A stretch of DNA of 64,000 bases from Phormidium tenue FACHB-886 (GTDB lineage: Bacteria; Cyanobacteriota; Cyanobacteriia; Elainellales; Elainellaceae). The first letter of the stretch is position 1; each line of letters begins with the position of its first letter. This document shows positions 13,474 to 62,003 of the stretch, piece by piece. The stretch covers positions 62,001 to 126,000 of the forward strand of contig NZ_JACXWX010000013.1 of assembly GCF_014764505.1 (NCBI RefSeq), given 5' to 3'. The position numbers were made by a program, and so were the translations under genes. Under the pieces are notes generated by a model that made no database searches, was not told the DNA's origin, and saw nothing but the letters and a program-made list of their open reading frames with translations.

Positions 13474-13478
13474 CCTCC
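13474..13478 (-). promoter_or_regulatory. Ribosome-binding site that sets the GT start
   Basis: On the minus strand GGAGG is 8 nt upstream of ATG 13465. This argues against the 62-codon in-frame extension upstream, which lacks homology to the sister genes. Confidence 0.6.
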
Positions 13479-13662
13479 GGCTGAAACTGGGTAGGTGCTG
13501 ACTTATGGAATGGCAAACGGAATTTGAAGGATTTTCTTTTTTCCGCAATTAAGTGAACTATGGTGTTATAAGATAATACACAATTTCTTACCGAAAAAAA
13601 TAGCGTGAAAGCATAATTGAGCAAACGCTGACGAAAGAGCATCTGTCGCATGAGATCGCTCC

Positions 13663-14643: not shown

Positions 14644-14648
14644 ACGGC

Positions 14649-15590
14649 TTAACAGGAAGAATGCAAATTGGGTAGCGGTTTGACTAAGGCACAGGCAAGC
14701 AGCTTCCAGCTCTCTGGGGTAGCAGGATGAAGGGCGATCGCCTTTAGCGCAGAACTAGCTGCCGTGCGCCGCAAGCCATGATTGAATGCCCACCAGCCGT
14801 ATTGGTGCAGGAAAGACTGACGCGAGGGGCGATCGCGTCCTGGGCGATACCAGGGTTTCTGGGCGCTAAAATGCCCGACGATGCCGCGCCGTTGCCACGC
14901 CCGCCGACAGGCTTCCTGGATCATTTGGTACTGCAACTCGCTGTGTCTGGCGCTGACAGACTGCATATGAAAGCGGTACTTCAGCACAGTATCCGGCAAG
15001 TTTGCCAGCAGCCCCACTTCGCCCAACCGCAGCAGCATATCTAAGTCTTCAACGGTCTGCATGGTCTCGTCATAGCCGCCAATCTGCTGAAGTGCCGATC
15101 GGCGGATCATGGCGCAGGGATGATTGATGATCGTTTGCCCTGATAAGAGGGCCTGCTGAATCTCAGTGTTTGTTTCTGGCATTGCCGAATGCAGCACCGT
15201 TCGCCCCTGCGGATCGATCAGGTCATAGGCTCCACCCACGCACACGTAATCGGGGTGCTGCTGTAGGAACTTGACCTGTAGCCCAAAGCGATCGGGTTGG
15301 GCAATGTCGTCCGCATCCATCCGCGCCAAAAACTCGCCCCGTGCCAGCGTCAGCATCTGATTCAGCGTTTGAATCAGCCCTCGGTTCTCTCGATGAATCA
15401 ACCGGATTCGCTTGTCTTGAGCAGCATAGCGGTCTAAAGTCTGGCGCGACTGATCCGTGGAGCCGTCGTTGATCAGCAGCAGCTCAAAGTCGCCAAAGGA
15501 TTGTGCCAAGATGCTCTCGATCGCCGCTACTAAATAGCGACCACCGTTGTAAACCGGAAATAGCACTGAGACGAGCGGCGGTTGACTCAT
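14649..15590 (-). CDS. GT2 family glycosyltransferase (third of five)
   Basis: This protein of about 313 residues carries PLVSVLFPVYNGGRYL, ELLLINDGSTDQSRQTL, GEFLARMDADDIAQPDRF and VEDLDMLLRLGEVG, then the shared tail QYGWWAFNHGLRRTA and SWKLLACALVKPLP. The frame continues 13 codons upstream, but I choose the ATG at 15590 because it overlaps the preceding gene's stop as ATGA, the arrangement repeated at the other operon junctions. Function: sugar transfer in assembly of the exported glycan (inference from context). Confidence 0.92.
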   Translation of the reverse strand: MSQPPLVSVLFPVYNGGRYLVAAIESILAQSFGDFELLLINDGSTDQSRQTLDRYAAQDKRIRLIHRENRGLIQTLNQMLTLARGEFLARMDADDIAQPDRFGLQVKFLQQHPDYVCVGGAYDLIDPQGRTVLHSAMPETNTEIQQALLSGQTIINHPCAMIRRSALQQIGGYDETMQTVEDLDMLLRLGEVGLLANLPDTVLKYRFHMQSVSARHSELQYQMIQEACRRAWQRRGIVGHFSAQKPWYRPGRDRPSRQSFLHQYGWWAFNHGLRRTAASSALKAIALHPATPESWKLLACALVKPLPNLHSSC

Positions 15591-16507
15591 AGCACGAGCT
15601 GTCTGGGGAGAGGTTTGACGATCGAGCAAGCTAGTAGCTTCCAGGCAGCAACCGAAAGCGGCTGGGCGGCAACTGCCCTCAGACCACAGCGACGAGCAAC
15701 TTCCCGCTGACCATCGTTGAAGCTAAGCCAACCGCAGCGCAGCAAAAAATCATGCTGGTGCAAATGGTCGGCAGGCTTGCGGATAAACTCACCTACAATG
15801 CCCCGTCGCTGCCACGCTCGCTGACAGGCAGCATAAGCATCGGAGGTTTGGCGGTTTTGCCGTCGATGTGTGATCGATTTCGAATGCAGCCGATAGCGCA
15901 GCAGCGTATCAGGCAGGTTGGCAAGCTCGCCCAGTTCACCCAGCCGCAGCCACAAATCTAGATCGACTGAGGCAACCAGCGATTCATCGTATCCACCCAC
16001 TTGCAGCAGCGCCGATCGCCTCACCATGGTGCAGGGATGATGCAGCATGGAAATACCACCGACCAGCAGCGATTGAATCTCTCGATCGGTCTGCGGCATC
16101 TCGCAATGCCCCAAATGGCGATCCTGCTCATCTATCCAATCCAAAGCGCTGCCGACACAGAGAACATTGGGATGTCCTCGCAGAAAGCCCACTTGGCGAG
16201 CAAAGCGATCGGGCATTGACACATCATCCCCATCCACGATGGCAATGAACTCTCCACGGGCTTGCGCCAGCAGCTCATTGCGAGTTTTGGAGATACCACG
16301 ATTTTCCCTGCTGCTCAGCTTGATGCGCTCGTCCCGCCTCGCATACCGCTCTAGGATTTTGCCAGAGCCATCCGTAGAGCCATCGTCGATGATGATGAGC
16401 TCGAAGTCCGTCCAGGTTTGGGCCAAGATGCTCTCGATCGCAGCAGCCAAATACCGGTCTACATTGTAGATCGGCATCAAGGCTGAAACGGTAGGAGGTT
16501 CGCTCAT
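15587..16507 (-). CDS. GT2 family glycosyltransferase (second of five)
   Basis: The 306-residue paralogue has VSALMPIYNVDRYLAAAIES, ELIIIDDGSTDGSGKIL, GEFIAIVDGDDVSMPDRF and SVDLDLWLRLGELG. Its nucleotide-binding motif is DGDD where its sisters have DADD, a small but possibly relevant difference. The tail RCGWLSFNDGQREVA and AWKLLACSIVKPLP is shared with its neighbours. Both ends overlap the adjacent genes by 4 bp (ATGA), so it is translationally coupled. Confidence 0.92.
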   Translation of the reverse strand: MSEPPTVSALMPIYNVDRYLAAAIESILAQTWTDFELIIIDDGSTDGSGKILERYARRDERIKLSSRENRGISKTRNELLAQARGEFIAIVDGDDVSMPDRFARQVGFLRGHPNVLCVGSALDWIDEQDRHLGHCEMPQTDREIQSLLVGGISMLHHPCTMVRRSALLQVGGYDESLVASVDLDLWLRLGELGELANLPDTLLRYRLHSKSITHRRQNRQTSDAYAACQRAWQRRGIVGEFIRKPADHLHQHDFLLRCGWLSFNDGQREVARRCGLRAVAAQPLSVAAWKLLACSIVKPLPRQLVL

Positions 16508-17418
16508 TGTGCTGTTGAGTGTGAGAAGGGTTTAATCAACGCGCAAGTGAGCAGCTTCCAGCTTTCAACATCAGACGGCATTGCTTTAACTGCCTGCATT
16601 CCATAGGCGATCGCTTTCCGCCGCTGCCCTTTGTTAAACATCTGCCAGCCAAACTGCAGGGTAAGGCTGTGCCGCCAGGAGGGGGCTACTTCATACCGTC
16701 CGGCGATTTGCCGCCGTTCCCAGGCTCGTTCGCAGGCAGCGCGGGCATATCCTGTCTGTTGTTTAATTCGTTTCTCGGTAACTGAGCCCGCATGGATACG
16801 GTATCGCATCAGCACCTTTTGCAGATTGGCAAGCTTGCCGATCTCTCCCAGCTTCAACCACAAGTCGAGGTCTTGAGCCGATTGCAGGCTAATATCGTAT
16901 CCCCCAACGGTCACCACTGCCTGCCGCCGCATCATCACAGAAGGATGACAGAAGTAATTTCTGCCAGCCAGCATATGCGCCTGAATTTCGTCATTGTCTG
17001 CCGCAGGTGAGCAGTGCATCAGGATTTCCCCTTCTCCATCGATCCATTCTTGAGCCGTGCCCAGGCAAACCACCTGGGGATGCTGGTTGAGAAAAGCGAC
17101 CTGATCAGCAAATCGTTCTGGTAGCGCTACATCGTCTGCGTCCATGCGAGCCAAAAACTTGCCGCTCGATCGGCTAACCAGCTCGTTGAGCGTTTGAGTG
17201 AGCCCTCGATTTTCGCGGCTAATCAGGACAATGCGTGGATCTTGGGCAGCATAGGCTTGCAGGATGTCAAGCGATCGATCGGTAGAGCCGTCATCCACAA
17301 TCAGAAACTCAAAATCTGTGAATGTTTGTCGCAAGATGCTTTCAACGGCTTCTCGTAGATATCGCTCGCTGTTATACACTGACATCAACACGCTAATCGT
17401 GGGAGTGGATCCGCCCAT
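16504..17418 (-). CDS. GT2 family glycosyltransferase (first of five)
   Basis: The 304-residue protein is the operon's first GT2, 29 bp after the Wzt-like ATPase gene. It has TISVLMSVYNSERYL, EFLIVDDGSTDRSLDIL, GKFLARMDADDVALPERF and AQDLDLWLKLGEIG, with the shared tail QFGWQMFNKGQRRKA and SWKLLTCALIKPFS. A GT2 in this position often adds an early sugar, but the order of action cannot be inferred from gene order alone. Its stop overlaps the next gene's start (ATGA). Confidence 0.92.
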   Translation of the reverse strand: MGGSTPTISVLMSVYNSERYLREAVESILRQTFTDFEFLIVDDGSTDRSLDILQAYAAQDPRIVLISRENRGLTQTLNELVSRSSGKFLARMDADDVALPERFADQVAFLNQHPQVVCLGTAQEWIDGEGEILMHCSPAADNDEIQAHMLAGRNYFCHPSVMMRRQAVVTVGGYDISLQSAQDLDLWLKLGEIGKLANLQKVLMRYRIHAGSVTEKRIKQQTGYARAACERAWERRQIAGRYEVAPSWRHSLTLQFGWQMFNKGQRRKAIAYGMQAVKAMPSDVESWKLLTCALIKPFSHSTAQ

Positions 17419-17447
17419 ATCTTTTGATATCTCCTTTTGATATCTTT

Positions 17448-18734
17448 TCAGCAGCCTGCCTTCTCAACGAGTTGCCATGAACGCGGCTGATAGTAAAAAC
17501 CGCGATTCATTTTTTCTTGTCCATTCACGGTAAATTTGTATCCCTCATACGCATCCAGAACGTAGAGCGAACCCTCCTTAACGTAGACATTCAAGATATA
17601 GGTGCTGGGAAGCAACCCCAGATGCGGCAAATAGGCACGCAGCTCGTACTCACCTGGTGCAACTTCAAAGGTTTCGCAGTCGTAGGCACTGCTCATGTGT
17701 AGGGCTAAGCCGTTGTCTCGGGTTGGTTGATAAACCGCCAGAAAAAGACTGAGATTGTGGATTTTGCGGTGAGTTTTGCACTTGACGCAGATGTAAGTGG
17801 GTTCACCGCTGGTCAAGGTTTCCAGCAGCCTACCTTCAGCATCTTTGAAGTAAATCGAGACCAAATCGGCTCCGGCACTTTCTGCTGGAGATCGCTCTGG
17901 CAAAAGGAAGGGAATGGCGCTTCGATCCAACCGCTTAACCCCAAACAAATCTTGCTCATACTGATCCATGATCGATCGCGCATCGCCAGCCGCTATCACC
18001 TCCCCTTTGGACAAATACACGGCGGTATCGCAAACGTTGAGGATACCCTGAAAAAAGTGGCTCACTAATACAAACGAAGTACCCTGCTGCAGCAGCTTCG
18101 ACAATTTCCGCTCGCATTTAGACCGAAATCGCACATCCCCGACTGCCAGCACTTCATCGATCAACAGAATGTCTGGATCGGTATGGATGGCACAGGCAAA
18201 CCCTAAGCGGGCCGCCATCCCAGAGCTATAGCTTTGCACTGGTGCATCGATCGCCTCCCCAATTTCGGCAAAATCAACGACTTCATCAAAGCGATCGTTG
18301 ATTTGCTTGGTGCTCAAGCCCAAGATCGACATGTTGGCATAGATGTTTTCCCGTCCGGTCAAAATTGGGCTAAATCCGGCGCCCAGCGCAATCAGCGGGG
18401 CGATTCGTCCTCTCGCTCGAATCGTTCCTGTATCAGGCTTGATCAGCCCGCTGATAATTCGCAGCAGGGTCGTTTTACCGCTGCCGTTCGCTCCCACTAA
18501 GCCCAACGCCTGCCCCTGCCGGAGCTGGAAGCTCACATCCTTGAGCGCCCAAAACTCCTTCGATCGCAGCTGGTCGCTTTGCCGTCGCATCCCCGACAGT
18601 TCTGAACCAATATCCTGAATGCCGTAAAACAGCGATCGCTTTAGACTACGACAAAACTTTTTTGAAACCCCCTCAATCGATAAAACGATCTCACTTTCAG
18701 TTGATCGCGTTGTTTCACTCGGAAATGTCATCAT
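17448..18734 (-). CDS. Polysaccharide ABC transporter ATP-binding protein (Wzt-like)
   Basis: The 428-residue protein is the ATPase of an ABC-type polysaccharide exporter. Walker A is GANGSGKTTLLRI, the signature is YSSGMAARLGFA, and Walker B is ILLIDEVLAVGD, all in the first 250 residues. The roughly 170-residue extension after it, from about 265, is beta-rich and fits the Wzt C-terminal domain, which in O-antigen systems binds the end group of the finished glycan and gates export. This suggests the exported chain has a recognised terminus. The gene overlaps the permease gene by 4 bp; two adjacent ATGs are possible starts. It acts at the inner membrane with the permease. Confidence 0.92.
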   Translation of the reverse strand: MMTFPSETTRSTESEIVLSIEGVSKKFCRSLKRSLFYGIQDIGSELSGMRRQSDQLRSKEFWALKDVSFQLRQGQALGLVGANGSGKTTLLRIISGLIKPDTGTIRARGRIAPLIALGAGFSPILTGRENIYANMSILGLSTKQINDRFDEVVDFAEIGEAIDAPVQSYSSGMAARLGFACAIHTDPDILLIDEVLAVGDVRFRSKCERKLSKLLQQGTSFVLVSHFFQGILNVCDTAVYLSKGEVIAAGDARSIMDQYEQDLFGVKRLDRSAIPFLLPERSPAESAGADLVSIYFKDAEGRLLETLTSGEPTYICVKCKTHRKIHNLSLFLAVYQPTRDNGLALHMSSAYDCETFEVAPGEYELRAYLPHLGLLPSTYILNVYVKEGSLYVLDAYEGYKFTVNGQEKMNRGFYYQPRSWQLVEKAGC

Positions 18735-19702
18735 GCGCTCATTCGCTCAATTACAAACGGCATTGCAACCCGATACACCAGCCAAGCCAACAGCAGCCCC
18801 ACGAGTGCTAGCAGGCTTGCCAGCCAAAACCCAGAAGGGTTAGACATGCCGCCGATCGTGGCTAGATCGCGTACGGCAACCAGCAGCGGCGTAGCAGGAT
18901 TGAGCTGCACCAGGGTCGCAAACCCGCCAGACTGCGGCACTGGATAAATCACAGGGGTCAGGAATAGCCACAGCCCCAACGCCAGCGTCAAGCCCTTAGA
19001 AACGTCTTCGTATAAAGCGGCGATCGGAGCCAGCAGCAAGCCCACTGCAGTTCCCAAGGCGATCAGGTGAACCAGCGCGACCGGAGCCAACAATACCATC
19101 CCCTGCACCGGAATCTTGAACAGCAGGAACAGCCCCACAATTAAAATTAGCTTGATGCCAAAGTTGAAAAAGACCTGCCCCAACTGGGACAAAATGATCG
19201 CCTCACGCGGAAAATTGATCTTTGCTAGCATCGGTTTAGCAGCCACCACCGCTTGAATGGGACCCGCAACTGCCTCACTAAACGTTTGCCACAGCGCCAT
19301 GCTGAACATGACATAGGCAGGATAGGGAATACTCGTCTCACCCACATTGAGGACTTTGGCAGTGCTTGCCAGCGTCAGCCCCAGTGCAGCAACGATCGGC
19401 GGCACAAACGCCCAAAAAATTCCTAAAGCAGACTGCCGATACTGGGCGTTGATATCTCGCACCAGCAGGCGCCACGCTAGCTCTCTGGATGCCAACAGAT
19501 CGCGTCCCATACTGCGAAACAGATGCAAAGGGTGGCGTAAAAGGCTTTCAGGCGTATAGGTAATGTCGAGTGGATTAGCTGGCTCAGTTTTGGACGGGTA
19601 GGATTCTGGTAGAGATGGCTCTGATAGATGCGAATGCCTTGGCATAGCTGACCCTTTTCGCTCACAGATAGAAAGGTGGGCATCAGGAGGTGAAGCAGAC
19701 AA
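18731..19702 (-). CDS. Polysaccharide ABC transporter permease (Wzm-like)
   Basis: The 323-residue membrane protein has six hydrophobic segments after a cytoplasmic N-terminus of about 90 residues and the ABC-2 motif WRLLVRDINAQYRQSALGIFWAF. Similar sequences export O-antigen, teichoic acid or capsule. It is the first gene of the operon, followed by its ATPase and five glycosyltransferases. The first 19 residues are of low complexity and a second ATG at 19645 (MPRHSHL) is an equally plausible start. No strong ribosome site distinguishes them. Confidence 0.9.
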   Translation of the reverse strand: MSASPPDAHLSICERKGSAMPRHSHLSEPSLPESYPSKTEPANPLDITYTPESLLRHPLHLFRSMGRDLLASRELAWRLLVRDINAQYRQSALGIFWAFVPPIVAALGLTLASTAKVLNVGETSIPYPAYVMFSMALWQTFSEAVAGPIQAVVAAKPMLAKINFPREAIILSQLGQVFFNFGIKLILIVGLFLLFKIPVQGMVLLAPVALVHLIALGTAVGLLLAPIAALYEDVSKGLTLALGLWLFLTPVIYPVPQSGGFATLVQLNPATPLLVAVRDLATIGGMSNPSGFWLASLLALVGLLLAWLVYRVAMPFVIERMSA

Positions 19703-47546: not shown

Positions 47547-50036
47547 CTAGAATGTACCGCGAGTCACCCCTAGCTGGCTGGATAGCTTTAGCTCCCGCCA
47601 AAGTTGCGCTCCGCTGATCTCGCCTTGCAGAAGTTGTTGATAGCACTGAATCGACCGCGCTACCTGCTGCGGCGATTCATTCACAAATTCTAGACGAAAG
47701 GATTGTACTCCTACTTTGATAAGGGATTGGACATACTCTGCTCCCGTTTGAGCTACGCCATTAAACACCGTATTGCGACAGCCTGCATCGGCTTGCAGCA
47801 AGTGTTCTGTTCCGGTGCGATCGCGCAATTTAACCTGATGGCTTTCACAGGGGCGACCACAATCGGTGTAGTCTTTGCCTTCCGAAAGAAACGCACAGAA
47901 TACACAATGCTCCATGTGAAACATCGGCATGTGCTGGTGAATCGTTACCTCAAACCAGTCGGTTGGGCACTGCCGGATTAGATCCTCAAGCTGCTGAATA
48001 TTCAGATCATAGGAAGCCGTCAGTCGCTCAAGCTGAAATTGTTTGAAGTAAGCAGCGGCGATCGGATTCGCTACATTCAGTGAGAAATCGCCAATACAGC
48101 GCTGACCTTGAAAGAACGCAAGCTGATCATAATTACGAATTAAATAGCCGTCTGCCTCAGCCGATCGTACCTGCTGCAAAATCCAATTTTCTGCAGGCTT
48201 GGTGATGCGCGGCGGTGCAACCCAGATTGTAGGGACTGTGGAGCTAGACTGCCATTGCCGCACAAGCTGAACGGCTTCTCGGTAGGCGCGCGGGTCTTCA
48301 AACTCGCAGTACAGCGTGGTGATCCCAGACTGGAGAGCAGCTTGAAGTTGGGGCAGGCTGCGAGTAAGGACGGCGAGGGTGGAGTGGCTATCAGCAGAGG
48401 AACTGGGGAGCACAGGCAGGAGATCGGTAAAGCTATGAGTAGAATTAAGCTGCCAGCGTTTGGGCTGTGATCGTAGTTCCTCAAGCTGAGCGACGATCCC
48501 GCGGCGCATTCGGTTCAATTCGCTGATAGGCAAAATCACAGCATCCTGCAGGTGATTAGTAAACTCACCGAGCTGGAAAGGCGTGTTGCCAAGCCGACCA
48601 AACTGGTCCTGTAGCCGATCGCCCGTTAAGGGCTGGCTGTGCGCTTGAGTCAGCGGCATGGCAGACTCAACTTGCACCACATGCCCCTGTGGATCGCGAG
48701 CGATCGCTACAAGCGGTTGATTAGTTGCACCGTGAATTTCTAAAGCGATCGGACGCTGAAACTGTGGAGTTTCACTGCTAAAAGTTTGGCGAAGCTGGCG
48801 ATCGAGTTCTGGATCGCTGGTTTTCCAAATTTTGTCTCCAATTTGGATTCGCTTTAAATCAATGTCTCGTCGCCCAAACGATAGCAGTGCTTCTTTTTTG
48901 CGGTATTCGATCGCATAAATTCGCCCTCCTTCTTCAGGTGCTTCAGGATGTCCGCTGTCGAACACCACACCATCTCCGGCTTTTGCTGAAGCCTCCAGCC
49001 TGACCGCAATCTGCTGATTGTGAACACCAATCACATCACCCAGATAAACCCCCCGCTTCTTACCAAAGCGCGCGTGAACTAGTTCTTGATTATGGATACC
49101 ACGAAACCAGCCTGTGTAAAGCCCTCGCGAAAACGCCATCTCCAGGCTGTAGCGGGATTCTTGAGCTGCTTCCATGCCCTGTGCGGCAACTTGATCGATC
49201 GCCGACCGATAAACGCGTGTCACATTTGCCACATACTCAGCCGACTTCAAGCGCCCTTCGATCTTGAGACAGGTCACGCCCGTTTGCATCAGCTCTGGCA
49301 GAACGTCTAACCCAGCTAGATCTTGGGGGCTAAGCAAATATTTACGCTGGTTTAAATCTACAGCTTTCCCGTCTGCAATCAGCTCATAGGGCATGCGGCA
49401 GGCTTGAGCGCACTCACCCCGGTTGGCAGAGCGTCCGCCCAGCGATTCGCTCGTCAAACACTGCCCAGAGTAGGCAACGCACAGCGCCCCATGCACAAAG
49501 ACCTCTAGCGGCATTGCCACCTGCCGATCGGCTAACTGCTGCTGGATCTTGTTGATTTCCTTCAGCGAGCATTCCCGCGCCAGCACCACGAGCTGACAGC
49601 CCAAAGATTGAGCAAACTCAACGCCCGCTGCGCTCGTCACCGTCATTTGAGTCGAGGCGTGAATCGGGAAGTCGGGCGATAGATGCCGAATGAGCCGACA
49701 GATGCCTACATCCTGCACAATTACCGCATCTACACCTGCACTGATGATGCTGCGGAGATACTGCTCCGCAGCAGCTAGTTCCTGCGGGAAAATTAGCGTG
49801 TTCAGCGTGACGTAGCCTTTAACGCCGCGCCGATGCAGAAATTCCATTAGCTTTGGCAGATCGGCTTCGGTGAAGTTGTGCGCTCTCATCCGCGCATTGA
49901 ATCGCTCCAGCCCAAAGTAAATGGCATCTGCACCATTTTCGATCGCCGCCTTGGCACAGTCCCAATCTCCGGCAGGTGCCAGCAGTTCTGGAATGTGAAC
50001 AGTAGACGGCGATTCAATTGGCAAGTGGGTAGTCAT
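47547..50036 (-). CDS. U32 family peptidase-like protein (RlhA/TrhP type)
   Basis: The 829-residue protein begins with the U32 domain: IPELLAPAGDWDCAKAAIEN, GVDAVIVQDVGICRLI, and the cysteine signature GQCLTSESLGGRSANRGECA followed by QACRMPYEL. A collagenase-like middle domain and a C-terminal U32-associated part with HMEHCVFCAFLSEG and DCGRPCE follow. E. coli members TrhP and RlhA act in hydroxylation of tRNA uridine or 23S rRNA cytidine, with conserved cysteines probably binding a metal or iron-sulfur cluster. The length suggests the fused U32 plus DUF3656 form, like RlhA. No membrane segment. RNA hydroxylation is the best-supported role, though the family is historically called peptidase. 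Confidence 0.88.
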   Translation of the reverse strand: MTTHLPIESPSTVHIPELLAPAGDWDCAKAAIENGADAIYFGLERFNARMRAHNFTEADLPKLMEFLHRRGVKGYVTLNTLIFPQELAAAEQYLRSIISAGVDAVIVQDVGICRLIRHLSPDFPIHASTQMTVTSAAGVEFAQSLGCQLVVLARECSLKEINKIQQQLADRQVAMPLEVFVHGALCVAYSGQCLTSESLGGRSANRGECAQACRMPYELIADGKAVDLNQRKYLLSPQDLAGLDVLPELMQTGVTCLKIEGRLKSAEYVANVTRVYRSAIDQVAAQGMEAAQESRYSLEMAFSRGLYTGWFRGIHNQELVHARFGKKRGVYLGDVIGVHNQQIAVRLEASAKAGDGVVFDSGHPEAPEEGGRIYAIEYRKKEALLSFGRRDIDLKRIQIGDKIWKTSDPELDRQLRQTFSSETPQFQRPIALEIHGATNQPLVAIARDPQGHVVQVESAMPLTQAHSQPLTGDRLQDQFGRLGNTPFQLGEFTNHLQDAVILPISELNRMRRGIVAQLEELRSQPKRWQLNSTHSFTDLLPVLPSSSADSHSTLAVLTRSLPQLQAALQSGITTLYCEFEDPRAYREAVQLVRQWQSSSTVPTIWVAPPRITKPAENWILQQVRSAEADGYLIRNYDQLAFFQGQRCIGDFSLNVANPIAAAYFKQFQLERLTASYDLNIQQLEDLIRQCPTDWFEVTIHQHMPMFHMEHCVFCAFLSEGKDYTDCGRPCESHQVKLRDRTGTEHLLQADAGCRNTVFNGVAQTGAEYVQSLIKVGVQSFRLEFVNESPQQVARSIQCYQQLLQGEISGAQLWRELKLSSQLGVTRGTF

Positions 50037-50138: not shown

Positions 50139-51845
50139 CTAGCGCAGACGATTTTGTTCAATGAACTCCATCAGCGCATCATATTTGGGAGAACTCTCCT
50201 GATTAACATATTCCAGTGCCCCCCAGCTCCCCCACTTACTAGGCTCAGAGATGTCAGAGAAGTGCATGAATAGCGTTCCACCGCTTTTCTGCCAGTCGTT
50301 TAAGAGCTGTGTGTAAATCTCCCGCATCTTCGGATGGCGGTTGACCTCAATGAAAAGATTTGTCAGCTTTTCGTTATTCTCAACGCCTTGCCAACCGACC
50401 ACATGCTGACCGCCTTCATACGCCACGAGCCGCAGCCCTTTGTCTTTGGCGACTTTGGCATGATAGGTAAACGCATCTGAGACAACTTTCATATCTTTGC
50501 TCAGCCACTCAAAAGCTTTGCTACTGCCGCCGTCTGCTTGAGACAGCCAGGATTCAATCGTTTTTTGGTGTTCGGGCGCGCCCAAGTTACCGCTGACATA
50601 GCCCGTGATCGCATAGGCGTCCGCCTGTTCGTGGCAGGGCTTATTGCCTTCTGCGACCCAGTAAGGGCAGTTGAGTACCATCTCCTCTAAGCCTTGCCAT
50701 GCCGTTTGGGTACCAAACACTGCCACAACCCGGTCGCGATCAGCTCCAAATTCCCGCTTCCAAATATCTGAAATCTGTGCCGAGCGCATGCCATACCACT
50801 GCATGTATGAATCGCCTTTGTCCTCTCCCCAGCGGGCTTTGCCTTGCGCTAGGGCATATTGCGACTGCGGAAATGACCAGTTCCAGACTTCGTTTGATAG
50901 CTCCACATACGCGTTGAGACCCGGATCAAGCTGCTGTTTCACAAGACGGGCAAAGTTCCGCACATAGTCATCTGTAGCCGCGTGTGGCATGTTAAACCAG
51001 GGGTTTGCGCCCAAGCGGTTAGCGAGCTGCACCATGATTTCAACCGGAACTCCTTTGCCCAGCGCATAGGAACGATCGTCCACTTTGGGACGGTTTGCCC
51101 AATCGCGCTGCTTAGTCTCGTTGGTGTTCATCCAGTCCATAAAGCGGATAGCGCTAAATTTCTTGGTGCGCTCCAGGAAGACTGGATTGAAGATTTGCTG
51201 CTCGTAGGTAGCTTCATAGGCGATCGGCACTACGCGAATATTGCGAATATAGTTGCCGGTCTTTTTAGGGTCAGTCGCGGTAATGATCAGGTGAATTCCT
51301 TCGCCATCGCGCGAGAAATCAACGTTAAGCACATCGCGTCCTGGGCGGGAGGCGGCTTCATCTTTGACCGCATCATAGACATACTCGATCGTGCCTTCCC
51401 CGTCATACAGCACGACATATTGACCAGATTCAAATTTACCGTTACCGCCAAATAAAATCGTGCGGACACGGGTAAATTCCGGCGAATCTTCAGGGGCAGG
51501 CAACGACTTCACCCAGCCATGTTCGTCTAAGTCAAGCTGGTCAAATTCATCCGTTGCCCAGCCGCCTGTGCAGCCCGGCTCGCCTCCTTCGCACTGAGTC
51601 AGCCACTCGCGAGACAGCTTAAAAGCATCTAGAAACGGGACTTCGGTTGACCAATCATTAATGCCATTTAGGTTTGTGCCAAGTGCTAAGGTGGCTCCAG
51701 CGCCTGAAGCTGCCGTAGCCGTAGCCGTCGTTGCAACCTGCGCACAAGACAGCGAGAAAAATACCGTGAGGCTAAATATTGCTAAATAGGCGATCGCTCT
51801 TAGAGAAGGCGATCGGCGCTTGAGCAAGGGAAGCTTGCTGATCAT
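50139..51845 (-). CDS. Exported clan GH-A-like glycoside hydrolase
   Basis: The product of about 568 residues starts with a basic and hydrophobic export signal (RAIAYLAIFSLTVFFSLSCAQ) and then a thermolabile-looking low-complexity stretch. The catalytic domain (from about residue 200) carries ELSNEVWNWSF, with a candidate acid/base Glu near 319, and VAYEGGQHVVG, with a candidate nucleophile Glu near 477. That pattern of NE and later E fits clan GH-A glycosidases. No specific family is recognised. It is the last gene of the rhamnose operon, 54 bp after rfbB. The upstream in-frame extension of 45 codons overlaps rfbB, so I chose ATG 51845. It probably acts on surface or extracellular glycan. 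Confidence 0.72.
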   Translation of the reverse strand: MISKLPLLKRRSPSLRAIAYLAIFSLTVFFSLSCAQVATTATATAASGAGATLALGTNLNGINDWSTEVPFLDAFKLSREWLTQCEGGEPGCTGGWATDEFDQLDLDEHGWVKSLPAPEDSPEFTRVRTILFGGNGKFESGQYVVLYDGEGTIEYVYDAVKDEAASRPGRDVLNVDFSRDGEGIHLIITATDPKKTGNYIRNIRVVPIAYEATYEQQIFNPVFLERTKKFSAIRFMDWMNTNETKQRDWANRPKVDDRSYALGKGVPVEIMVQLANRLGANPWFNMPHAATDDYVRNFARLVKQQLDPGLNAYVELSNEVWNWSFPQSQYALAQGKARWGEDKGDSYMQWYGMRSAQISDIWKREFGADRDRVVAVFGTQTAWQGLEEMVLNCPYWVAEGNKPCHEQADAYAITGYVSGNLGAPEHQKTIESWLSQADGGSSKAFEWLSKDMKVVSDAFTYHAKVAKDKGLRLVAYEGGQHVVGWQGVENNEKLTNLFIEVNRHPKMREIYTQLLNDWQKSGGTLFMHFSDISEPSKWGSWGALEYVNQESSPKYDALMEFIEQNRLR

Positions 51846-51898: not shown

Positions 51899-52984
51899 CT
51901 AAGCGTAGACCTTGCGGTAATAGTCTTGATAGTCTTTTGACAGTAGCGGTTGCCACCAGTCTGGGTGAGAGAGATACCATTCGACTGTGCGGCGCAGTCC
52001 TTCCTGTACTGTGACGGAAGGAACCCAGCCCAGCTCAGTCCGAATTTTGGTGGCATCGATCGCATAGCGGCGATCATGTCCTGGGCGATCTTTGACAAAG
52101 GTGATCAGGTTGCGTGCCGGACGTACCGGCAAAGACGGCGCGAGTTCATCCATCAGGTCACACAGCATGTGAACCAGATCGATATTTTTAACTTCGTTGT
52201 TCCCACCAATGTTGTAGGTTTCGCCTGCTGTACCTCGATGGATCACAGCATCAATAGCGCTACAGTGATCTTCTACATACAGCCAGTCGCGCACGTTCTG
52301 CCCATCACCATACACAGGCAGCGGTTTACCCATCAGGATGTTGATGCACATCAGCGGGATTAGCTTTTCTGGGAAGTGATAAGCGCCGTAGTTGTTAGAG
52401 CAGTTGGTAATCAGGGTAGGCAGCCCGTAGGTATGGTGATATGCCCGCACCAAGTGATCGCTCCCTGCCTTGGAGGCTGAGTAGGGGCTGTTGGGCGCAT
52501 AGGGCGTAGTTTCGCTAAACCCCGGGTCGGTCGGCTCTAGACTGCCGTATACTTCGTCTGTAGAGACGTGATGGAAGCGGTAGGTTTGCGGCTGTCCGGC
52601 TGTGTTCCAGTGTTGCCGAAAGGCTTCCAAAAGAGTGAATGTGCCAACGACATTGGTTTGCACGAACGCACCAGGTCCCAAAATCGATCGATCGACGTGC
52701 GACTCGGCAGCAAAGTGAACGATCGTATCGATATCCTCAGTCTGCAGCAGTTCGTCAACCAGGAGACGATCGCAGATATCTCCTTCCACAAAGCGCAGGT
52801 TTGCCTGTCCTTCCAAACTAGTCAGGTTGTTGCGGTTTCCAGCGTAGGTAAGCGCATCTAGGACGATGACTCGATCGCCAGGATATTGCCTGCACCAGTG
52901 ATGCACAAAATTAGAACCAATGAACCCTGCCCCTCCTGTGATAATCACACGGCGTGGCGGTCTGGATACAAGCTGCTCTGGCAT
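51899..52984 (-). CDS. rfbB: dTDP-glucose 4,6-dehydratase
   Basis: The product of about 361 residues is an extended short-chain dehydrogenase. GGAGFIGSNFVHHW binds NAD, and YSASKAGSDHLVRAYHHTYG holds the catalytic Tyr and Lys. It makes dTDP-4-keto-6-deoxyglucose, the second step of dTDP-L-rhamnose synthesis. The frame also opens upstream from a GTG at 53029; I prefer the ATG 52984 (MPEQLVSRPPRR), which gives the usual length. It is fourth in the rfbC-D-A-B order and 76 bp after rfbA. Confidence 0.93.
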   Translation of the reverse strand: MPEQLVSRPPRRVIITGGAGFIGSNFVHHWCRQYPGDRVIVLDALTYAGNRNNLTSLEGQANLRFVEGDICDRLLVDELLQTEDIDTIVHFAAESHVDRSILGPGAFVQTNVVGTFTLLEAFRQHWNTAGQPQTYRFHHVSTDEVYGSLEPTDPGFSETTPYAPNSPYSASKAGSDHLVRAYHHTYGLPTLITNCSNNYGAYHFPEKLIPLMCINILMGKPLPVYGDGQNVRDWLYVEDHCSAIDAVIHRGTAGETYNIGGNNEVKNIDLVHMLCDLMDELAPSLPVRPARNLITFVKDRPGHDRRYAIDATKIRTELGWVPSVTVQEGLRRTVEWYLSHPDWWQPLLSKDYQDYYRKVYA

Positions 52985-53060
52985 AGTAGTTACGTTTTGA
53001 ATATGTTGATTTGCGATCGGCGGGGACACGCCTCACCGAACTGAACTGCGGACTGAATTA

Positions 53061-54134
53061 CTAAATGACTTCAATTTGGCAGTCATCGCCAATCATGAAC
53101 CGTAGTGCTTTGGGACGGCGGGGAGCTTCGGTCAGATAAGCACGTTGACCAATCACGCTATCCACAATGCGCTTATGAACACCCTCCACTCTGGCACCTT
53201 GCAGGATGACGCTATGTTCTAAATCCGCTTCAATTAGGCGCACATCATCCGCGATGCTGCTGTAAGGACCAATGAAGCAGTTTTCAAGATGGCAGTTTTT
53301 GCCGATCGTCACAGGACCACGAATCGTGCAGTTCGTTACCGTAGAGCCTTCACCAATTTGGACACGTCCAATAATCCGGCTTTGCTCATCCACGTTGCCC
53401 TGCATCGAGCAGATAAGGCATTCATCCAAAATGACTCGGTTGGCTTCCAGTAAATCGTCTTTTTTACCAGTATCCAGCCACCAGCCGCGAATCTGGCGGG
53501 CTTCTACGGCTTTTTCCCAGTCGATTAGCTGCTGGATCGCATCGGTGATTTCCAGTTCGCCTCTAGCAGACGGTTGGATTGCGGCGATCGCCTCATGGAT
53601 CACAGGCGAGAACACATAAATGCCAACCAGCGCCAAGTTAGAAGGCGGGTCTTTGGGCTTCTCAATTAGCTGCAGCAGCCGTCCGTTCTCATCAACCTTT
53701 GCAACCCCAAAAGCGCTGGGATTAGGCACAGGACACAAGAGCGTCAGTGCTTCCAGGCTGTGTGTCTGAAACTGCTCCAGAAATAGCGCCAGCTCGCTTT
53801 GCACTAGGTTATCGCCCAGATACATAACAAACGGCGAATCTCCTAAAAACGGCTGGGCGATCTTGACGGCATGTGCCAATCCGGCGGGCTGGTCTTGCAA
53901 AATATAGGTAATATTTGCCCCAAACTGGCCGCCATCGCCTGTTTTGGCTTTCACTTCTTCACCTGTTTCCGGGCTGATGATGATGCCGATCTCGGTGATG
54001 CCCGCCTCAACGATCGACTCGATGCCATACCAGAGAATGGGTTTGTTGGCGACTGGAACGAGCTGTTTAGCTCCGGTGTAGGTCAGCGGACGGAGACGGG
54101 TGCCTTTGCCGCCGGAAAGAATAATAGCTTTCAT
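53061..54134 (-). CDS. rfbA: Glucose-1-phosphate thymidylyltransferase, long form
   Basis: The 357-residue enzyme couples dTTP and glucose-1-phosphate to dTDP-glucose, the first step to dTDP-rhamnose. The nucleotide site is LSGGKGTRLRPLTYTGAKQL, with MYLGDNLVQ and EKPKDPPSNLALVGIYVF after it. The C-terminal left-handed beta-helix (VDEQSRIIGRVQIGEGSTV, CTIRGPVTIGKNCHL) marks the long form. Its start overlaps the rfbD stop by 4 bp (ATGA). The long form is often used as a feedback-regulated variant. Confidence 0.95.
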   Translation of the reverse strand: MKAIILSGGKGTRLRPLTYTGAKQLVPVANKPILWYGIESIVEAGITEIGIIISPETGEEVKAKTGDGGQFGANITYILQDQPAGLAHAVKIAQPFLGDSPFVMYLGDNLVQSELALFLEQFQTHSLEALTLLCPVPNPSAFGVAKVDENGRLLQLIEKPKDPPSNLALVGIYVFSPVIHEAIAAIQPSARGELEITDAIQQLIDWEKAVEARQIRGWWLDTGKKDDLLEANRVILDECLICSMQGNVDEQSRIIGRVQIGEGSTVTNCTIRGPVTIGKNCHLENCFIGPYSSIADDVRLIEADLEHSVILQGARVEGVHKRIVDSVIGQRAYLTEAPRRPKALRFMIGDDCQIEVI

Positions 54135-55045
54135 GAGTGAGTGGAGGAATAAAGTTCAGTTAACATCTGTCGGAGGCTTTGTCGCCACTGGGGGGCAGGC
54201 GAATTTTGGAGTGCCCAAATCTTCTGACAAGCCAGCGCCGAGTAGGCAGGGCGCTCCGTTGACGTGGGAAATTCTGGTGTGGTAATCGGCACAACGCGCT
54301 GCAGCTTTAGCGGAAAGCCGATCGCTTCGGCTTCTTCAAAGATGGCAACGGCAAAGTCATACCAGCTCGTGATGCCGCTGTTCGTAAAGTGATAAATCCC
54401 GCTGGGAGCAGCTTCAACAGCGCCCTTAAGCAAATGTGGGGAAAGCGTAGTGATCGCCTTAGCAATTTCAGCAGACCAAGTTGGCGTTCCCACCTGATCG
54501 GCAACCACTCGAACTTCAGGGCGATCGGCTCCTAACCGCAGCATTGTTTTTACAAAATTGCCTTTCCCCTTTGCACCATAGACCCAGGCTGTCCGGAGAA
54601 TGGCGTAGCGCAACGACGACTGAGCTGCAACTTGCTGAATCCCTTGCTCACCGAGCAGCTTTGACCTGCCGTATGCTCCAAGCGGATTGGGCGCGTCGGT
54701 TTCGGTGTAAGGGGTATTCTTCTGCCCGTCGAACACATAGTCTGTGGAGATGTGAATTAGGCTAGCGCCAATCTGCTGAGCGGTCTCTGCCATCACAGTC
54801 GGGGCTTCGGCATTAATGGCTTTCGCCAGATTAGTCTCTGTTTCGGCTGTATCGACTGCGGTATAAGCTGCCGCATTCACAATTAGATCAGGCTGTGCGT
54901 CTTGGATGAGTTGACGGATGCGATCGCTTTGGGTCAAGTCCAAAGCATCCCGTGCAACGCTAATCACCTCACCCACCAACGGCAGTGTTTTTTGTAGCTC
55001 CTGACCGACCTGTCCGGCTGCTCCAATCAACAAGATGCGCCTCAT
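54131..55045 (-). CDS. rfbD: dTDP-4-dehydrorhamnose reductase
   Basis: The 304-residue NAD(P)-dependent reductase makes dTDP-L-rhamnose from the 4-keto sugar. It has LIGAAGQVGQELQ for the nucleotide, YVFDGQKNTPYTETD after the catalytic Thr region, and YGRSKLLGEQ with the Tyr and Lys of the active site. Its stop overlaps rfbA (ATGA). The rfbC gene lies 154 bp upstream on the same strand. Confidence 0.94.
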   Translation of the reverse strand: MRRILLIGAAGQVGQELQKTLPLVGEVISVARDALDLTQSDRIRQLIQDAQPDLIVNAAAYTAVDTAETETNLAKAINAEAPTVMAETAQQIGASLIHISTDYVFDGQKNTPYTETDAPNPLGAYGRSKLLGEQGIQQVAAQSSLRYAILRTAWVYGAKGKGNFVKTMLRLGADRPEVRVVADQVGTPTWSAEIAKAITTLSPHLLKGAVEAAPSGIYHFTNSGITSWYDFAVAIFEEAEAIGFPLKLQRVVPITTPEFPTSTERPAYSALACQKIWALQNSPAPQWRQSLRQMLTELYSSTHS

Positions 55046-55199: not shown

Positions 55200-55742
55200 T
55201 TAATCAAAAAGTTCGGCTGTTTTAAGCAATTGACCTGCCTGATCTTTGGCAGACACGACGGGGTCTCGGGTTGCCCAATCGATCGCCAAATCTGGATCGT
55301 TCCAGGCAAGGCAGCGCTCGTGGGCAGGGGCATAGAAATCGGTGGCTTTGTACAACACTTCAGTGCGATCGGCGAGCGTCAGGAAACCATGGGCAAACCC
55401 TGGCGGAATCCAAAACTGCCGCTTGTTTTCAGCGCTCAGCTCGCAGCTCACCCATTGTCCAAAGGTCGGAGAGCTTTTGCGTAAATCTACCGCTACATCA
55501 AAGATAGCTCCAGCAACAACGCGCAGCAGTTTTCCTTGCGCCTGCTGAATTTGGTAGTGTAACCCCCGCAAGACGTTTTTAGTAGAGCAGGAGTGGTTGT
55601 CTTGGACAAAGCGTAGCTCAACCCCGGTTTTCTCGGCAAAAGCCTTTTCGTTAAAGCTTTCCATGAAAAAGCCGCGTTCATCCTCAAACACACGAGGCTC
55701 AATGATCAAAACGTCTGAAATCTCTGTTGGAATAATCTTCAT
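55200..55742 (-). CDS. rfbC: dTDP-4-dehydrorhamnose 3,5-epimerase
   Basis: The 180-residue cupin-fold enzyme epimerises the 4-keto-6-deoxy sugar at C3 and C5. Motifs include DERGFFMESFNEKAF, GLHYQIQQAQGKLLRV with the catalytic His, and PPGFAHGFLTLADRTE. It is the first gene of the operon. Length is the usual 180-190 residues. Confidence 0.95.
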   Translation of the reverse strand: MKIIPTEISDVLIIEPRVFEDERGFFMESFNEKAFAEKTGVELRFVQDNHSCSTKNVLRGLHYQIQQAQGKLLRVVAGAIFDVAVDLRKSSPTFGQWVSCELSAENKRQFWIPPGFAHGFLTLADRTEVLYKATDFYAPAHERCLAWNDPDLAIDWATRDPVVSAKDQAGQLLKTAELFD

Positions 55743-56217: not shown

Positions 56218-57447
56218 CTAAGTTTTAGACGTATTAATATCGCGCTCAGTACGGACCCACTTAGTTTCTGGACGCACGAGGAACTTAAGGTAGAGCGGAA
56301 TTTTCCAAAGCATATAAAGCGGAATCGCCAAAAGGGTGCGCGCAGGCAGATCCGATCGGCAGAACTTTGCCCAAGCGAGCAGCGTTGCCGTCAGCAGCAG
56401 CGAACCGTCAATTGCCAACAGCAGCACAGGCAACCAAATACCCGTCAGCAGCGCTGCAATACAAGCAAGCACGATAGCTACCAACCAAAACATTACCAGC
56501 AGGGATAGAGGTGGCACAGCAAGATCAAGCGCCATCACGCCCAGATCAAGCCGTTCTTCAACCACTGCTCGTTTGAGCAACGCTGGAACCTGCGTCAAGA
56601 GCGTTTGTAAATGCCCATGCTCCCAGCGAGTCCGCTGGCTGGAGGAAGCTTTGTCCTGCTGGGGCAACATTCCTCTCACGCTTGCCGTTTCACAAAAGTA
56701 GACGGGTCGCCCTGCGATCGCCAGATCGATTCCCAACTGCATATCTTCAACAATATTGCCGCTTGCCAGCTTAACGCTACGCAAAACAGCCCAAGGAAAC
56801 GCCATACCTGTCCCAGTGAGCAGGCAGGGAAAGCCAAACCGATTTAGCCCTCTAGGACGCACCAAATTTTTCATCTTAAAGGCAAAGGCAGATACGGCAT
56901 CTCGCGGCTTTGGGGCAGCAGGCTGCTCCATTAAGTAAAGCGCCTGCACGGGCTGCTGTTTGGTGATTGCCAGTTTTGCGATTTGCGAGAGAGTGCCGGG
57001 CTGTACCAGACAATCGGCATCAACAATCGTTATTACATCAGGCGGGTCTGCCGCTAAATAGTTGACGCCATAGTCGAGCGCATAACCTTTACCACGCTGG
57101 TCTAAATTTCGGCGCTCGATTACGGTAGCTCCGGTGCTACGGGCAATGGCAGCAGTGTCATCAGTGCAGTTGTCAGCCACCACCACGAGGCGATCGTGCT
57201 CGGTGAGCTGTGGCAGCAGGCTTTTTAGGACAGGCAAAATTCCAGCCGCTTCATTGTGAGCTGGAATTAGGACGGCCGTTTTGATCGTCGCTGGAGACGA
57301 CGATGGTTCTGGGAGAGGGCGAGCAGGCAAAAGTGCTGCAAGGCATTCTACAAACAGCGTCCCAATGGGTACAAGCAGAATAAGAGCGATCGTCAGCAGA
57401 GCGCTACTGAGCAGAAACATAAGGGGATGGACTAACAGGACCCGCAT
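56218..57447 (-). CDS. Membrane GT2 glycosyltransferase with QxxRW motif
   Basis: The 409-residue protein has an N-terminal membrane segment, a cytoplasmic GT2 domain, and about three C-terminal membrane segments. GT motifs: AVLIPAHNEAAGI, IVDADCL with the metal site, GNIVEDMQLGIDL with the catalytic ED, and SSQRTRWEHG with a QxxRW signature. This is the pattern of processive enzymes such as cellulose and hyaluronan synthases or related non-processive transferases. It is monocistronic. The initial ATG is at 57447, but an internal one nine codons later is possible. The glycan product is unknown. Confidence 0.9.
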   Translation of the reverse strand: MRVLLVHPLMFLLSSALLTIALILLVPIGTLFVECLAALLPARPLPEPSSSPATIKTAVLIPAHNEAAGILPVLKSLLPQLTEHDRLVVVADNCTDDTAAIARSTGATVIERRNLDQRGKGYALDYGVNYLAADPPDVITIVDADCLVQPGTLSQIAKLAITKQQPVQALYLMEQPAAPKPRDAVSAFAFKMKNLVRPRGLNRFGFPCLLTGTGMAFPWAVLRSVKLASGNIVEDMQLGIDLAIAGRPVYFCETASVRGMLPQQDKASSSQRTRWEHGHLQTLLTQVPALLKRAVVEERLDLGVMALDLAVPPLSLLVMFWLVAIVLACIAALLTGIWLPVLLLAIDGSLLLTATLLAWAKFCRSDLPARTLLAIPLYMLWKIPLYLKFLVRPETKWVRTERDINTSKT

Positions 57448-58022: not shown

Positions 58023-61000
58023 TCACTCAACACCCTCAATGCGATCTTCTACTTCTTGATAGAGTTCGCGCAGCAGCTCCAGGTTTTCTTCGCTAGTTTC
58101 CCAGTAGCCGCGACCGTTGACTTCCAGCAGCGTACTAACGACCTTGCGGAACGAATGCGGATTGAGATTCAGCAGCCGATTTCGCATGGCTTCATCTTGG
58201 ATGAACGTCGCGTTGGTGTCTTCGTAAATCCAGTTGTCTACGGCGCCGGCAGTAGCTGACCAGCCCATCGTGTTTACCAGCCGCTTCGAGAGTTCGCGGA
58301 CGCCTTCGTAGCCGTGAGACAGCATCCCCTCATACCACTTTGGATTCAGCAGCTTCGTGCGGGCATCCAGTCGGACAGTTTCTGAAAGCGTGCGGACTTG
58401 AGCATTGGCGGTGGTGGTGTCAGCAATGAAAGAAGCAGGCGCTTTGCCATCGTTCCGCAGCTTAGAAACGACCTTGGTGGGGTCAGAATCAAAGTAGTGC
58501 GATACATCCGTCAGAGAAATCTCTGAGGAGTCGAGGTTTTGGAACGTTACATCCACTGTTTTAAGGGCAGACTCAAACAGCTCGCGCGACTGATCCATCA
58601 TCCCAGGGTTGTCGGAGTTGAAGGCGAACGACTTGCGCGCCAGATACATGTCCTGTAGCTCTGACTCAGCCTCCCAAGTGCTGTTCTCCACTGCCAGGTT
58701 TACGTTGGCGGCATAGGAGCCAGAAGCGTTAGAGAAGACGCGCGTCGCAGCCTGCCGCACGTTAACATTCATCTCCTCGGCTTGCTTGAGCGCATGCTTA
58801 CGAACGAAGTTTAGCTCTAGCGGTTCATCGGCTTCCGCTGCCATCTTGATGGCGCGATCGAGCAGGTTCATTTGGTTGATGAACAAGTCGCGGAAGACCC
58901 CAGAGCAGTTGACCACCACGTCTACCCGTGGACGACCCAACTCCTCTAGCGAAATCAGCTCCAGCTTATTGACCCGCCCCAGCGCATCGGGAACCGGACG
59001 CACGCCAACCAGCAGCATTACCTGCGCCAGCGATTCGCCGTAGGTCTTGATGTTGTCTGTGCCCCACAGTACAAACGCGATCGTCTCTGGATACTGTCCG
59101 TTGTTTTCCTGACGCTGGCGATTGAGCAGGCGATCAACCACAATCTGCGCCGACTGCACCGCTGCCGAAGTCGGAATCGACTGCGGATCAAGCGCATGGA
59201 TATTCTTGCCGGTGGGCAGCACATCCGGATTGCGAATCGGGTCGCCGCCCGGTCCCGGCAGGATATATTCACCTTCCAGCGCTTTAATCAGAGCGCCTAG
59301 CTCGTTGTCTGCCGTCACCTGCTTCAGGCAAAACTCCAGATATTCAAACAGCGGCTTGATCGCGTCTGGGTCAACCTTGGCATAGCCTGCTTGGTGCAGC
59401 GCTTCGATCCAGGGTTCCTTTTTGCCGATGTTGAAGAAGTTGAGCTTGGTGACTCTAGACACGCGCCCGTCGGCATCGGTCTGTTCTTTCACCATTGCCG
59501 CAACCGCTGCCCGCGCTGCCTGATTAATGTCATACAGCAACTGCACATCTGCCAGAACGCCGCGATCGCTGTTTTTGTAGATTTCATCGATATCGCGGCC
59601 TAGGCTGCTGGCGATAATCCGCTGCAGGCTCTGGATATTTTCTTCGGCGCGATCGAGTCCAGCAATATTGACCAGCGTGGCGATCGCTTCTTCGGCGGTG
59701 GGTGGTTTGCCAATAATGTGCAAGCCGCAGGGCAGCAGACGCGATTCGATCTCCATCAGCCGGATATAGACTTTACCGACTAAGGCATCCCGATCGCTTG
59801 CCTCTAGCTCTGTGCCTGCTTCTGGCAGCTCAATATCCTTGTCGAGGTTAACCTGCCGACACTTCTCGATGATGGCATTGATGATCGGCATCGCTCGACC
59901 GCCCTCTTTCAGGGTTTGGTAGGAGGAAATCAGCTCACTGAGTTCCTTCAAACCTTTGTAGAGTCCGGCGTTTTCGGCTGGCGGCGTCAGGTAGCTGATC
60001 GTCTCGGCATAGCTGCGGCGTTTGGCGATCGTCGCTTCAGATGGGTTGTTTGCCGCGTAGTAATAGAGATTGGGAATCATGCCGATCAGGCTATCTGGGT
60101 AGCACTCACCCGACATCCCCATTTGCTTACCCGGCATGAATTCTAGCGATCCATGCGTGCCAAAGTGCAGCACGGCATCGGCCTGCCAGACATGCTCTAG
60201 ATAGGTGTAGTAGGCAGCGAAGCCGTGGTGCGGGCTGGCAGAACGCGAGAACAGCAGCCGCATCGGGTCGCCCTCGTAGCCGAAGGTTGGCTGAATGCCG
60301 ATGAAGACATTGCCGAAGTGCTTGCCGAAAATCAGCAGATCTTGCCCATCGGTATTGAGATGACCCGGAGCCTCACCCCAGGATTCTTCTAGGCGCTTGT
60401 GGTAGGGAGTCAGTGATTCGTACTCCGGCACAGACATGCGGTAGGCGATGTTCAGCTCTGGGCTGTTGTATTGTGCTTGGGCATCGTGAATCACCGCCTG
60501 CATCAGCGCTTCTGCTGAATCGGGCACCTCTTGCACGTCATAGCCGTTGTTTCGCAATGCCTTTAGTGCTTCGTAGATCGAGCCAAACACATCGAGATAA
60601 GCGGCAGTACCAACGTTGCCCTTGTCGGGCGGGAAGCTAAATACTGTGATCGCCACTTTCTTGTGGATCTTCGGCTTCCGGCGCAGGTTTGCCCATTTCA
60701 TAGCGCGTTGGGCGATCGCTTCTACGCGGTCTTGCAGGGCGATCGCTTTACCGGTTGCCCCATCCCGACCCGATACGATGATTGGCTCGATGGCACCATC
60801 TAGCTCAGGAATGGCAATTTGCAGCGCTACCTGAATCGGGTGCAGACCCAGATCGCTATCTTGCCATTCTTCAGTAGTTTGGAAGACGAGCGGCAGCGCC
60901 ACCATGTAAGGACGGTTCAGCCGCTGCAGGGCATCGATCGCTTTCGGGTGGTCTTGCCGTGCGGGTCCGCCGACGAGCGCAAAGCCCGTGAGGGAAACTA

Positions 61001-62003
61001 CAACATCAACGATCGCCGTTTGCGCTTTGGAGATGGGGTCGTAGAAGAAAGCCTCTACAGGCTTGGAGAAATCTAGACCGCTGGCAAACACCGGAATTAC
61101 CCGTGCGCCCATGCACTCTAGCTCTTGCACCATTGCCACATAATGGGCATCATCGCCCGTAACCAAGTGCGTCCGCTGCAGCACCAAGCCCACGACTGGA
61201 GCTAGCGGATCTTTTAAATCTGCCGACACATCTTGCCGAGAGCTGTACCAGTTGAGATATTCTTTCAAATCCTCAAACATGTGAGGCGCGAGCGGATGCC
61301 AGATACCCAAGTCAGGATAGGTAACTGGATCGCGGTATTTCACTGCTGTAGTACCTTGATCCACCTGCGTGTATCTGTCCACCAGCATCAGCAGGAAGTT
61401 TTCCAGATTCTCCGCTGAGCCGCCTAGCCAGTACTGGAAGCTGAGCATGAAGTTACGGGCATCTTGTGCCTTCTCCATGGGCAGGTACTTCAGCACTTTG
61501 GGCAACGTATTCAGCAGCTTCAGCATGGCGTCCTGGAAACTGCTGCCCGATTGCTCTTTGCGCTTCCGCATAAACTGGGCGATCGCGCTCTTGGATTGCC
61601 CAAGCTGCGCCATGGAAAAGCTACCTAGCTTGTTGAGCCGCATCACCTGCGGCATTGAGGGAAACACAACGGCAGCATCTAGGCGATCGCGGTGTGGCTC
61701 CACTGCCGCCACCACTTTCTCGGCAAGTTCTTCAATAAAGATCAGCGAAGCGATAAAGAGATTGGCTTCTGCCACATCCTGCTGGAACGCTTCGTAGTTT
61801 TCGGGGCTACGCAATTCTTCTAGCAAATAGCCGCTAATCTCGATCGCCAGGTTGGGGTTCGTTTCATTAATCGACCGGACAGCCGCAGACAGGGCACTTT
61901 GGTACTGCGGCTCCAACACGACATAGACCACCTTGATCAGCGATCGCCCCTGAAGGTTGTCGGGTGCGATATGTCTGACCGTGGGCTTGACGTGAGTGAA
62001 CAT
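58023..62003 (-). CDS. chlH: Magnesium chelatase subunit H
   Basis: The 1326-residue protein is the porphyrin-binding catalytic subunit of Mg-chelatase, which inserts Mg2+ into protoporphyrin IX, the branch point to chlorophyll. It works with ChlI and ChlD, which are not in this window. The N-terminus [19 protein letters not shown] is typical of cyanobacterial ChlH, and internal landmarks include [20 protein letters not shown] and the [20 protein letters not shown] segment near the C-terminus. Length matches the family. An AAGGAG ribosome site lies about 8 nt before the ATG. A terminator follows at 57891-57914. Related to CobN but the sequence is ChlH-like. Confidence 0.97.

Follow-up and report, generated by a model that had tools for sequence, protein, structure and literature searches.

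Which enzyme is encoded directly behind the rhamnose genes of Phormidium tenue FACHB-886, and what might it do there? A preliminary description of the 64-kb window (the whole stretch of 64,000 nucleotides analysed here) had pointed to an unrecognised clan GH-A-like hydrolase at the end of the dTDP-rhamnose operon. We approached this question with Pfam, NCBIfam and PDB sequence searches, a structure model, a fold search and a comparison of gene neighbourhoods in relatives.

The hydrolase gene and the rfb operon

The gene follows rfbC-D-A-B on the same strand, an arrangement that had been proposed from the letters of the sequence and that the Pfam matches confirm, with a gap of 53 bp between rfbB and the hydrolase gene.

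56218..57447, minus strand: family 2 glycosyltransferase (GT2) gene (Pfam), 5′ of rfbC also in most relatives
55200..55742, minus strand: rfbC, dTDP-4-dehydrorhamnose 3,5-epimerase (Pfam dTDP_sugar_isom, 3.4e-76)
54131..55045, minus strand: rfbD, dTDP-4-dehydrorhamnose reductase (Pfam RmlD_sub_bind, 1.4e-102)
53061..54134, minus strand: rfbA, glucose-1-phosphate thymidylyltransferase (Pfam NTP_transferase, 3.5e-62)
51899..53029, minus strand: rfbB, dTDP-glucose 4,6-dehydratase (Pfam GDP_Man_Dehyd, 8.8e-93), directly upstream of the hydrolase gene in relatives
50139..51845, minus strand: putative clan GH-A type retaining glycoside hydrolase gene, 568 aa (ORF call, Pfam, NCBIfam, PDB sequence searches, structure model, fold search)
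51744..51845, minus strand: signal sequence, residues 1–34, a hydrophobic stretch that ends in a lipobox-like SLSC (Cys34)

The open reading frame for the 568-aa protein begins with an ATG at 51845 and stops at 50139. We prefer this start to that of a longer ORF, which extends to 51980, because the longer frame overlaps rfbB and the signal sequence starts at 51845. The signal noted in the preliminary description is clearly present. Its lipobox is non-canonical, with Ser at position −3 relative to Cys34. A lipobox-like Cys is found in 12 of the 15 rfb-linked members with a readable N-terminus, the window's own included, and is missing in the other three (L038–L040). By its N-terminal sequence the protein is a probable lipoprotein, and the same region suggests that it is held at the envelope.

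On the same strand, a U32 peptidase gene (47547-50036) begins 102 bp beyond the hydrolase gene, and no terminator-like site was found on either side of the hydrolase gene, the U32 interval included. Since the U32 peptidase gene adjoins the hydrolase gene in no relative examined, we rejected it as a member of the transcription unit and regard the hydrolase gene as the last conserved one. Its designation as the last gene of the operon therefore stands for conserved gene order; as a strict end of the operon it is tentative, given the same-strand neighbour 102 bp on and the lack of a terminator-like site.

Within the 64-kb window, no polymerase or exporter adjoins the rfb operon. About 31 kb away, at 12488-19702 on the minus strand, several GT2 genes lie beside a Wzt-type ATPase (Wzt_C) and an ABC-2 permease; this cluster for ABC-type polysaccharide export may draw on dTDP-rhamnose. 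Upstream of the GT2 and rfb genes lies the gene for magnesium chelatase subunit H (CobN-Mg_chel, 58023-62003, minus strand), whose position is kept in several relatives (L035, L037, L041, L051), so that a chlorophyll gene consistently accompanies the rhamnose operon there.

Sequence searches

Over the hydrolase domain, no Pfam or NCBIfam match was obtained for the 568-aa protein or for any of 76 aligned sequences (0/76). Profiles built from 27 and from 76 sequences found no glycosidase among solved structures (PDB), searches that would be expected to reveal CAZy families of solved structure unless these are very distant. We dismissed as chance the matches of the 568-aa protein to KEOPS Pcc1 and cruzain (E 0.1-0.7) and those of the family profiles to a nanobody and to PsbQ. 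Individual clan members were equally unproductive. GH39 gave no PF01229 match and an hhalign probability of 0.3%, the same as controls, with a weak GH39 profile of only two rows. GH5 (no PF00150 match, 0.3%) and GH10 (no PF00331 match, 0.2%) remained at the level of unrelated control families in the same comparison, and the Pfam GH30 models matched neither the 568-aa protein nor the 76 aligned sequences.

Judged by these searches, the protein belongs to a bacterial family outside the coverage of Pfam, NCBIfam and solved structures. In a search of the open-access literature, no description of such a family was found. Where plasmid records carry an annotated gene for a relative, its product is mostly named as hypothetical or as a calcium-binding protein.

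Predicted fold and active site

A prediction from the single sequence was discarded (pLDDT 35). The AlphaFold2 model derived from the 76 sequences has a mean pLDDT of 96.6 and a pTM of 0.94. Presence or absence of a TIM barrel had been set beforehand as a test, and the predicted structure is a barrel of the clan GH-A type: a (beta/alpha)8 barrel with eight strands in order, read in the model as residues 54-58, 232-234, 281-286, 312-316, 373-378, 410-417, 472-480 and 523-528. The features that define the putative active site and the architecture are as follows.

51225..51512, minus strand: beta-sandwich insert, about residues 112-207, between barrel strands 1 and 2 (from the strand order in the model; the reading as a domain is ours)
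50877..50897, minus strand: SNEVWNW, residues 317-323, after barrel strand 4, with Glu319 as predicted acid/base preceded by the invariant Asn318 (alignment, model)
50406..50420, minus strand: YEGGQ, residues 476-480, on barrel strand 7, with Glu477 as predicted nucleophile (alignment, model)

Both motifs lie at the residues originally given for them. S317, N318, E319, W321 and N322 are identical in 76/76 aligned sequences and E477 in all 75 that cover its position. R234 (strand 2), H288 (after strand 3) and Y416 (strand 6) are invariant or nearly so in the alignment, and their positions resemble the conserved active-site set of GH5. Model and alignment together place an Asn-Glu pair (N318-E319) after strand 4 and the candidate nucleophile E477 on strand 7, as the clan requires; in the model, this residue layout is the active-site pattern of clan GH-A, in line with the retaining catalysis predicted at the outset.

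A Foldseek search of the PDB with the model returned 139 matches at E<=0.001, the best at E 4.2e-7. The top 50 comprise GH79, GH53, GH50, GH51, GH10, GH164, GH5 and GH2 enzymes, all of which belong to clan GH-A by established classification. The nearest solved structures give modest TM-scores of about 0.3-0.57, and the substrate can therefore not be read from the fold; adopting that of GH79 from its fold match was rejected as over-reading at a TM <0.5.

Occurrence and gene neighbourhood of the family

In a scan of one genome per species (84,980 species), at least 583 loci encode relatives, corresponding to 583 of the 593 stretches listed, and these span about eight phyla or more. The best 80 of the at least 583 come from Cyanobacteriota, Chloroflexota, Gemmatimonadota, Acidobacteriota, Myxococcota, Campylobacterota, Planctomycetota and Pseudomonadota, together with a few doubtful records. 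A sample of the window's own phylum gave a match in 20 of 291 genomes, a few of these matches being fragments. Fischerella and one other cyanobacterium carry adjacent tandem copies of the hydrolase gene (L105, L108, L113), and in metagenome bins frameshifts or stops interrupt some copies of the short form (L095/L051, L097/L052), through either assembly error or decay.

Conservation of the association with rfb genes had likewise been set beforehand as a test, and it is borne out across genera. In 15 of 20 short-form loci of relatives, rfbB lies directly upstream on the same strand, usually preceded on its 5′ side by rfbA, rfbD, rfbC and a GT2 gene, and the rfbB-linked gene spans nine genera besides the window's own, 10 in all. 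With the gene carried by 28 of 98 related genomes, rfbB upstream in 15 of 20 loci, and Glu319 and Glu477 kept in 76/76 and 75/75 sequences, neither the hydrolase gene nor its link to rfb is a product of chance. The association has a defined range: in a tree of 89 rows, all 16 rfb-linked rows fall inside one group of 20 with a support of 93, and the rfb-link label requires four changes over the whole tree. The rfb link thus belongs to one cyanobacterial clade, and the family as a whole is tied more generally to polysaccharide synthesis genes. Relatives of the same taxonomic family also possess rfb operons that lack the hydrolase gene and continue with other genes after rfbB, and on this ground we rejected a requirement of the gene for rhamnose synthesis itself.

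Outside the rfb-linked clade, the gene often adjoins genes for GT2, GT1/4 and WecG-type glycosyltransferases, epimerases and Wzy-like proteins. GT2 genes make up 13 of 107 neighbouring genes within two positions in other bacteria, compared with 55 GT2 matches in the whole 8.9-Mb genome to which the window belongs, a background of one genome only. A Wzy-like gene lies directly upstream of the hydrolase gene at one locus (L082), in Shinella the gene is placed between O-antigen ligase and polysaccharide export genes, and a Paracoccus plasmid protein fuses the hydrolase domain to a GH16 domain and RTX repeats.

Roseobacters show a further architecture, in which an N-terminal 'GHSLxGPxxPxM' region, possibly an SGNH-type esterase, precedes the hydrolase domain (L140:5062-7617, L141:5083-7602, L146:5047-7602, L150:5089-7611, L145:4783-8661); the same region opens the Paracoccus GH16 fusion (L075:1438-8346). 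In an unusual combination of a peptide-synthetase-like enzyme with a polysaccharide hydrolase, one roseobacter (L146:1-5107) has, ahead of its hydrolase gene, a cluster of genes for a 1161-aa AMP-binding/luciferase-like/PP-binding protein, for a phosphopantetheinyl transferase and for a GHSLVG protein separate from the hydrolase. A record under an actinobacterial name (L141, Nocardioides marinus DP1N28-1) holds a cluster much like this one, through contamination, misnaming or recent transfer.

Two cyanobacterial forms

The cyanobacterial members occur in two forms. A hydrophobic leader, a lack of extra domains and, in most members, the lipobox-like Cys characterise the rfb-linked form. The second form shares the catalytic domain, is leaderless, lies away from rfb genes and in several cases carries RTX calcium-binding repeats (HemolysinCabind), a composition that suggests export into the matrix; it was not found in the genome to which the window belongs.

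Proposed function

The 568-aa protein is predicted to be targeted to the envelope and very probably cuts sugar chains. We favour, with a probability of roughly 0.7, an envelope-anchored, probably lipid-modified, retaining endo-glycosidase of the clan GH-A type that acts on the cell's own exopolysaccharide, as PslG does. Cleavage would be a double displacement in which Glu319 acts as acid/base and Glu477 as nucleophile. The substrate would be a polysaccharide of the cell's own making, built from dTDP-rhamnose and other sugars; the enzyme may thus act on a rhamnose-containing polymer. It might trim the chain, detach it from the exporting machinery or remove polymer that has stalled while being made and exported, the same role as proposed for PslG with Psl. 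The analysis shows the conserved motifs, the conserved operon position, a confidently predicted barrel and its similarity in fold to GH-A enzymes; that the protein hydrolyses its substrate with retention, that it has a lipid anchor, and what its substrate and its role in the cell are, we infer.

The distribution of the family also fits a clan GH-A hydrolase that attacks foreign or matrix polysaccharide, for nutrition or for remodelling after secretion, and whose place behind rfbB is a frozen accident of one lineage. Close paralogues lie away from rfb genes, several of them with RTX repeats and likely type I secretion, many non-cyanobacterial members are larger multidomain proteins, and the rfb link is limited to one clade. 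We nevertheless consider this explanation unlikely. The rfb-linked form lacks extra domains and mostly has the lipobox-like Cys, the family is again enriched beside glycosyltransferase and polymerase genes in distant bacteria, and the retention of the rfbB link over 10 genera speaks against an accident.

Location in synthesis clusters would suit a building role as well, in which a transglycosylase or polymer-linking enzyme on a GH-A scaffold links chains to one another or fixes the polymer to an acceptor at the surface, with no cutting. Some clan GH-A families, such as GH72, transglycosylate, and N318, E319 and E477 would be the same in such an enzyme. No sequence feature points specifically to a transglycosylase, however, and PslG, the closest functional parallel, is a hydrolase (PMC11912335); we give this alternative a small chance. 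A catalytically dead GH-A fold that serves as a glycan-binding or export protein is more improbable still: the beta-sandwich insert in the model could be accommodated by such a role, and catalysis of the 568-aa protein is itself a prediction, yet neither the two catalytic Glu nor the residues around them vary across many phyla, a constancy for which a dead enzyme would have no need.

Beyond endo-acting cleavage of the cell's own polymer by this one protein, we tentatively propose, at somewhat less than even odds, that the at least 583 loci represent an unnamed clan GH-A family with a beta-sandwich after strand 1 that is devoted to the exopolysaccharides of its producers, and that in cyanobacteria comprises a cell-anchored rhamnose-operon form and an exported RTX form. 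If so, the same catalytic domain is used for trimming while the polymer is being made and for release from the matrix.

Comparison with known systems

Among enzymes of similar fold, GH79 heparanase and 4-O-alpha-L-rhamnosyl-beta-D-glucuronidase (5bwi, 7dfq), members of clan GH-A, are among the best PDB matches (E 4e-7 and 7e-6). They differ in sequence (10-13% identity, no Pfam GH79 match) and superpose with a TM of 0.36-0.47, and the match does not imply a similar substrate. GH53 beta-1,4-galactanase, GH51 arabinofuranosidase, GH10, GH5, GH50 and GH164 enzymes share the barrel type in the fold search, whereas none of these families has a Pfam match in the 76 members, and the profile comparison with GH5 and GH10 stays at control level.

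With respect to operon organization, PelA and AlgL have folds and families different from those of the 568-aa protein. Their likeness lies in the position of a degrading enzyme, a hydrolase in the Pel operon and a lyase in the alginate operon, within a polymer-making operon (PMC9894940, PMC9075953), and the hydrolase activity of PelA generates secreted Pel (PMC9894940).

PslG, an endo-beta-glucanase of the psl cluster, is like the 568-aa protein in that its gene lies inside a cluster for a rhamnose-containing exopolysaccharide, and in its two catalytic Glu, clan GH-A barrel and envelope location, which for the 568-aa protein are predicted. PslG of Pseudomonas aeruginosa is a GH39 enzyme; the 568-aa protein, in contrast, has no detectable sequence or profile relation to GH39 (with a GH39 profile of two rows) or to a PDB glycosidase chain, contains the extra beta-sandwich insert, and is encoded by a gene that in its clade is tied to rfb genes and not to a polymerase. 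PslG works at the inner membrane in Psl synthesis, and glycosyl hydrolase genes are common in EPS clusters (PMC9075953). As with PslG-type hydrolases of EPS operons, the gene studied here is conserved within a polysaccharide synthesis cluster, and the parallel with PslG drawn in the preliminary description is one of proposed role and predicted clan and does not extend to the family, which by sequence is not GH39, GH5 or GH10.

Hydrolases in polysaccharide operons influence the amount of polymer, its length and its attachment to the cell, and most of the known examples come from Pseudomonas and similar bacteria. The present family is large and uncharacterised, has intact catalytic residues and recurs beside polysaccharide genes; it is a candidate for the same job in cyanobacteria, roseobacters and rhizobia. 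It would also be a source of new enzymes for polymers on which few known enzymes act.
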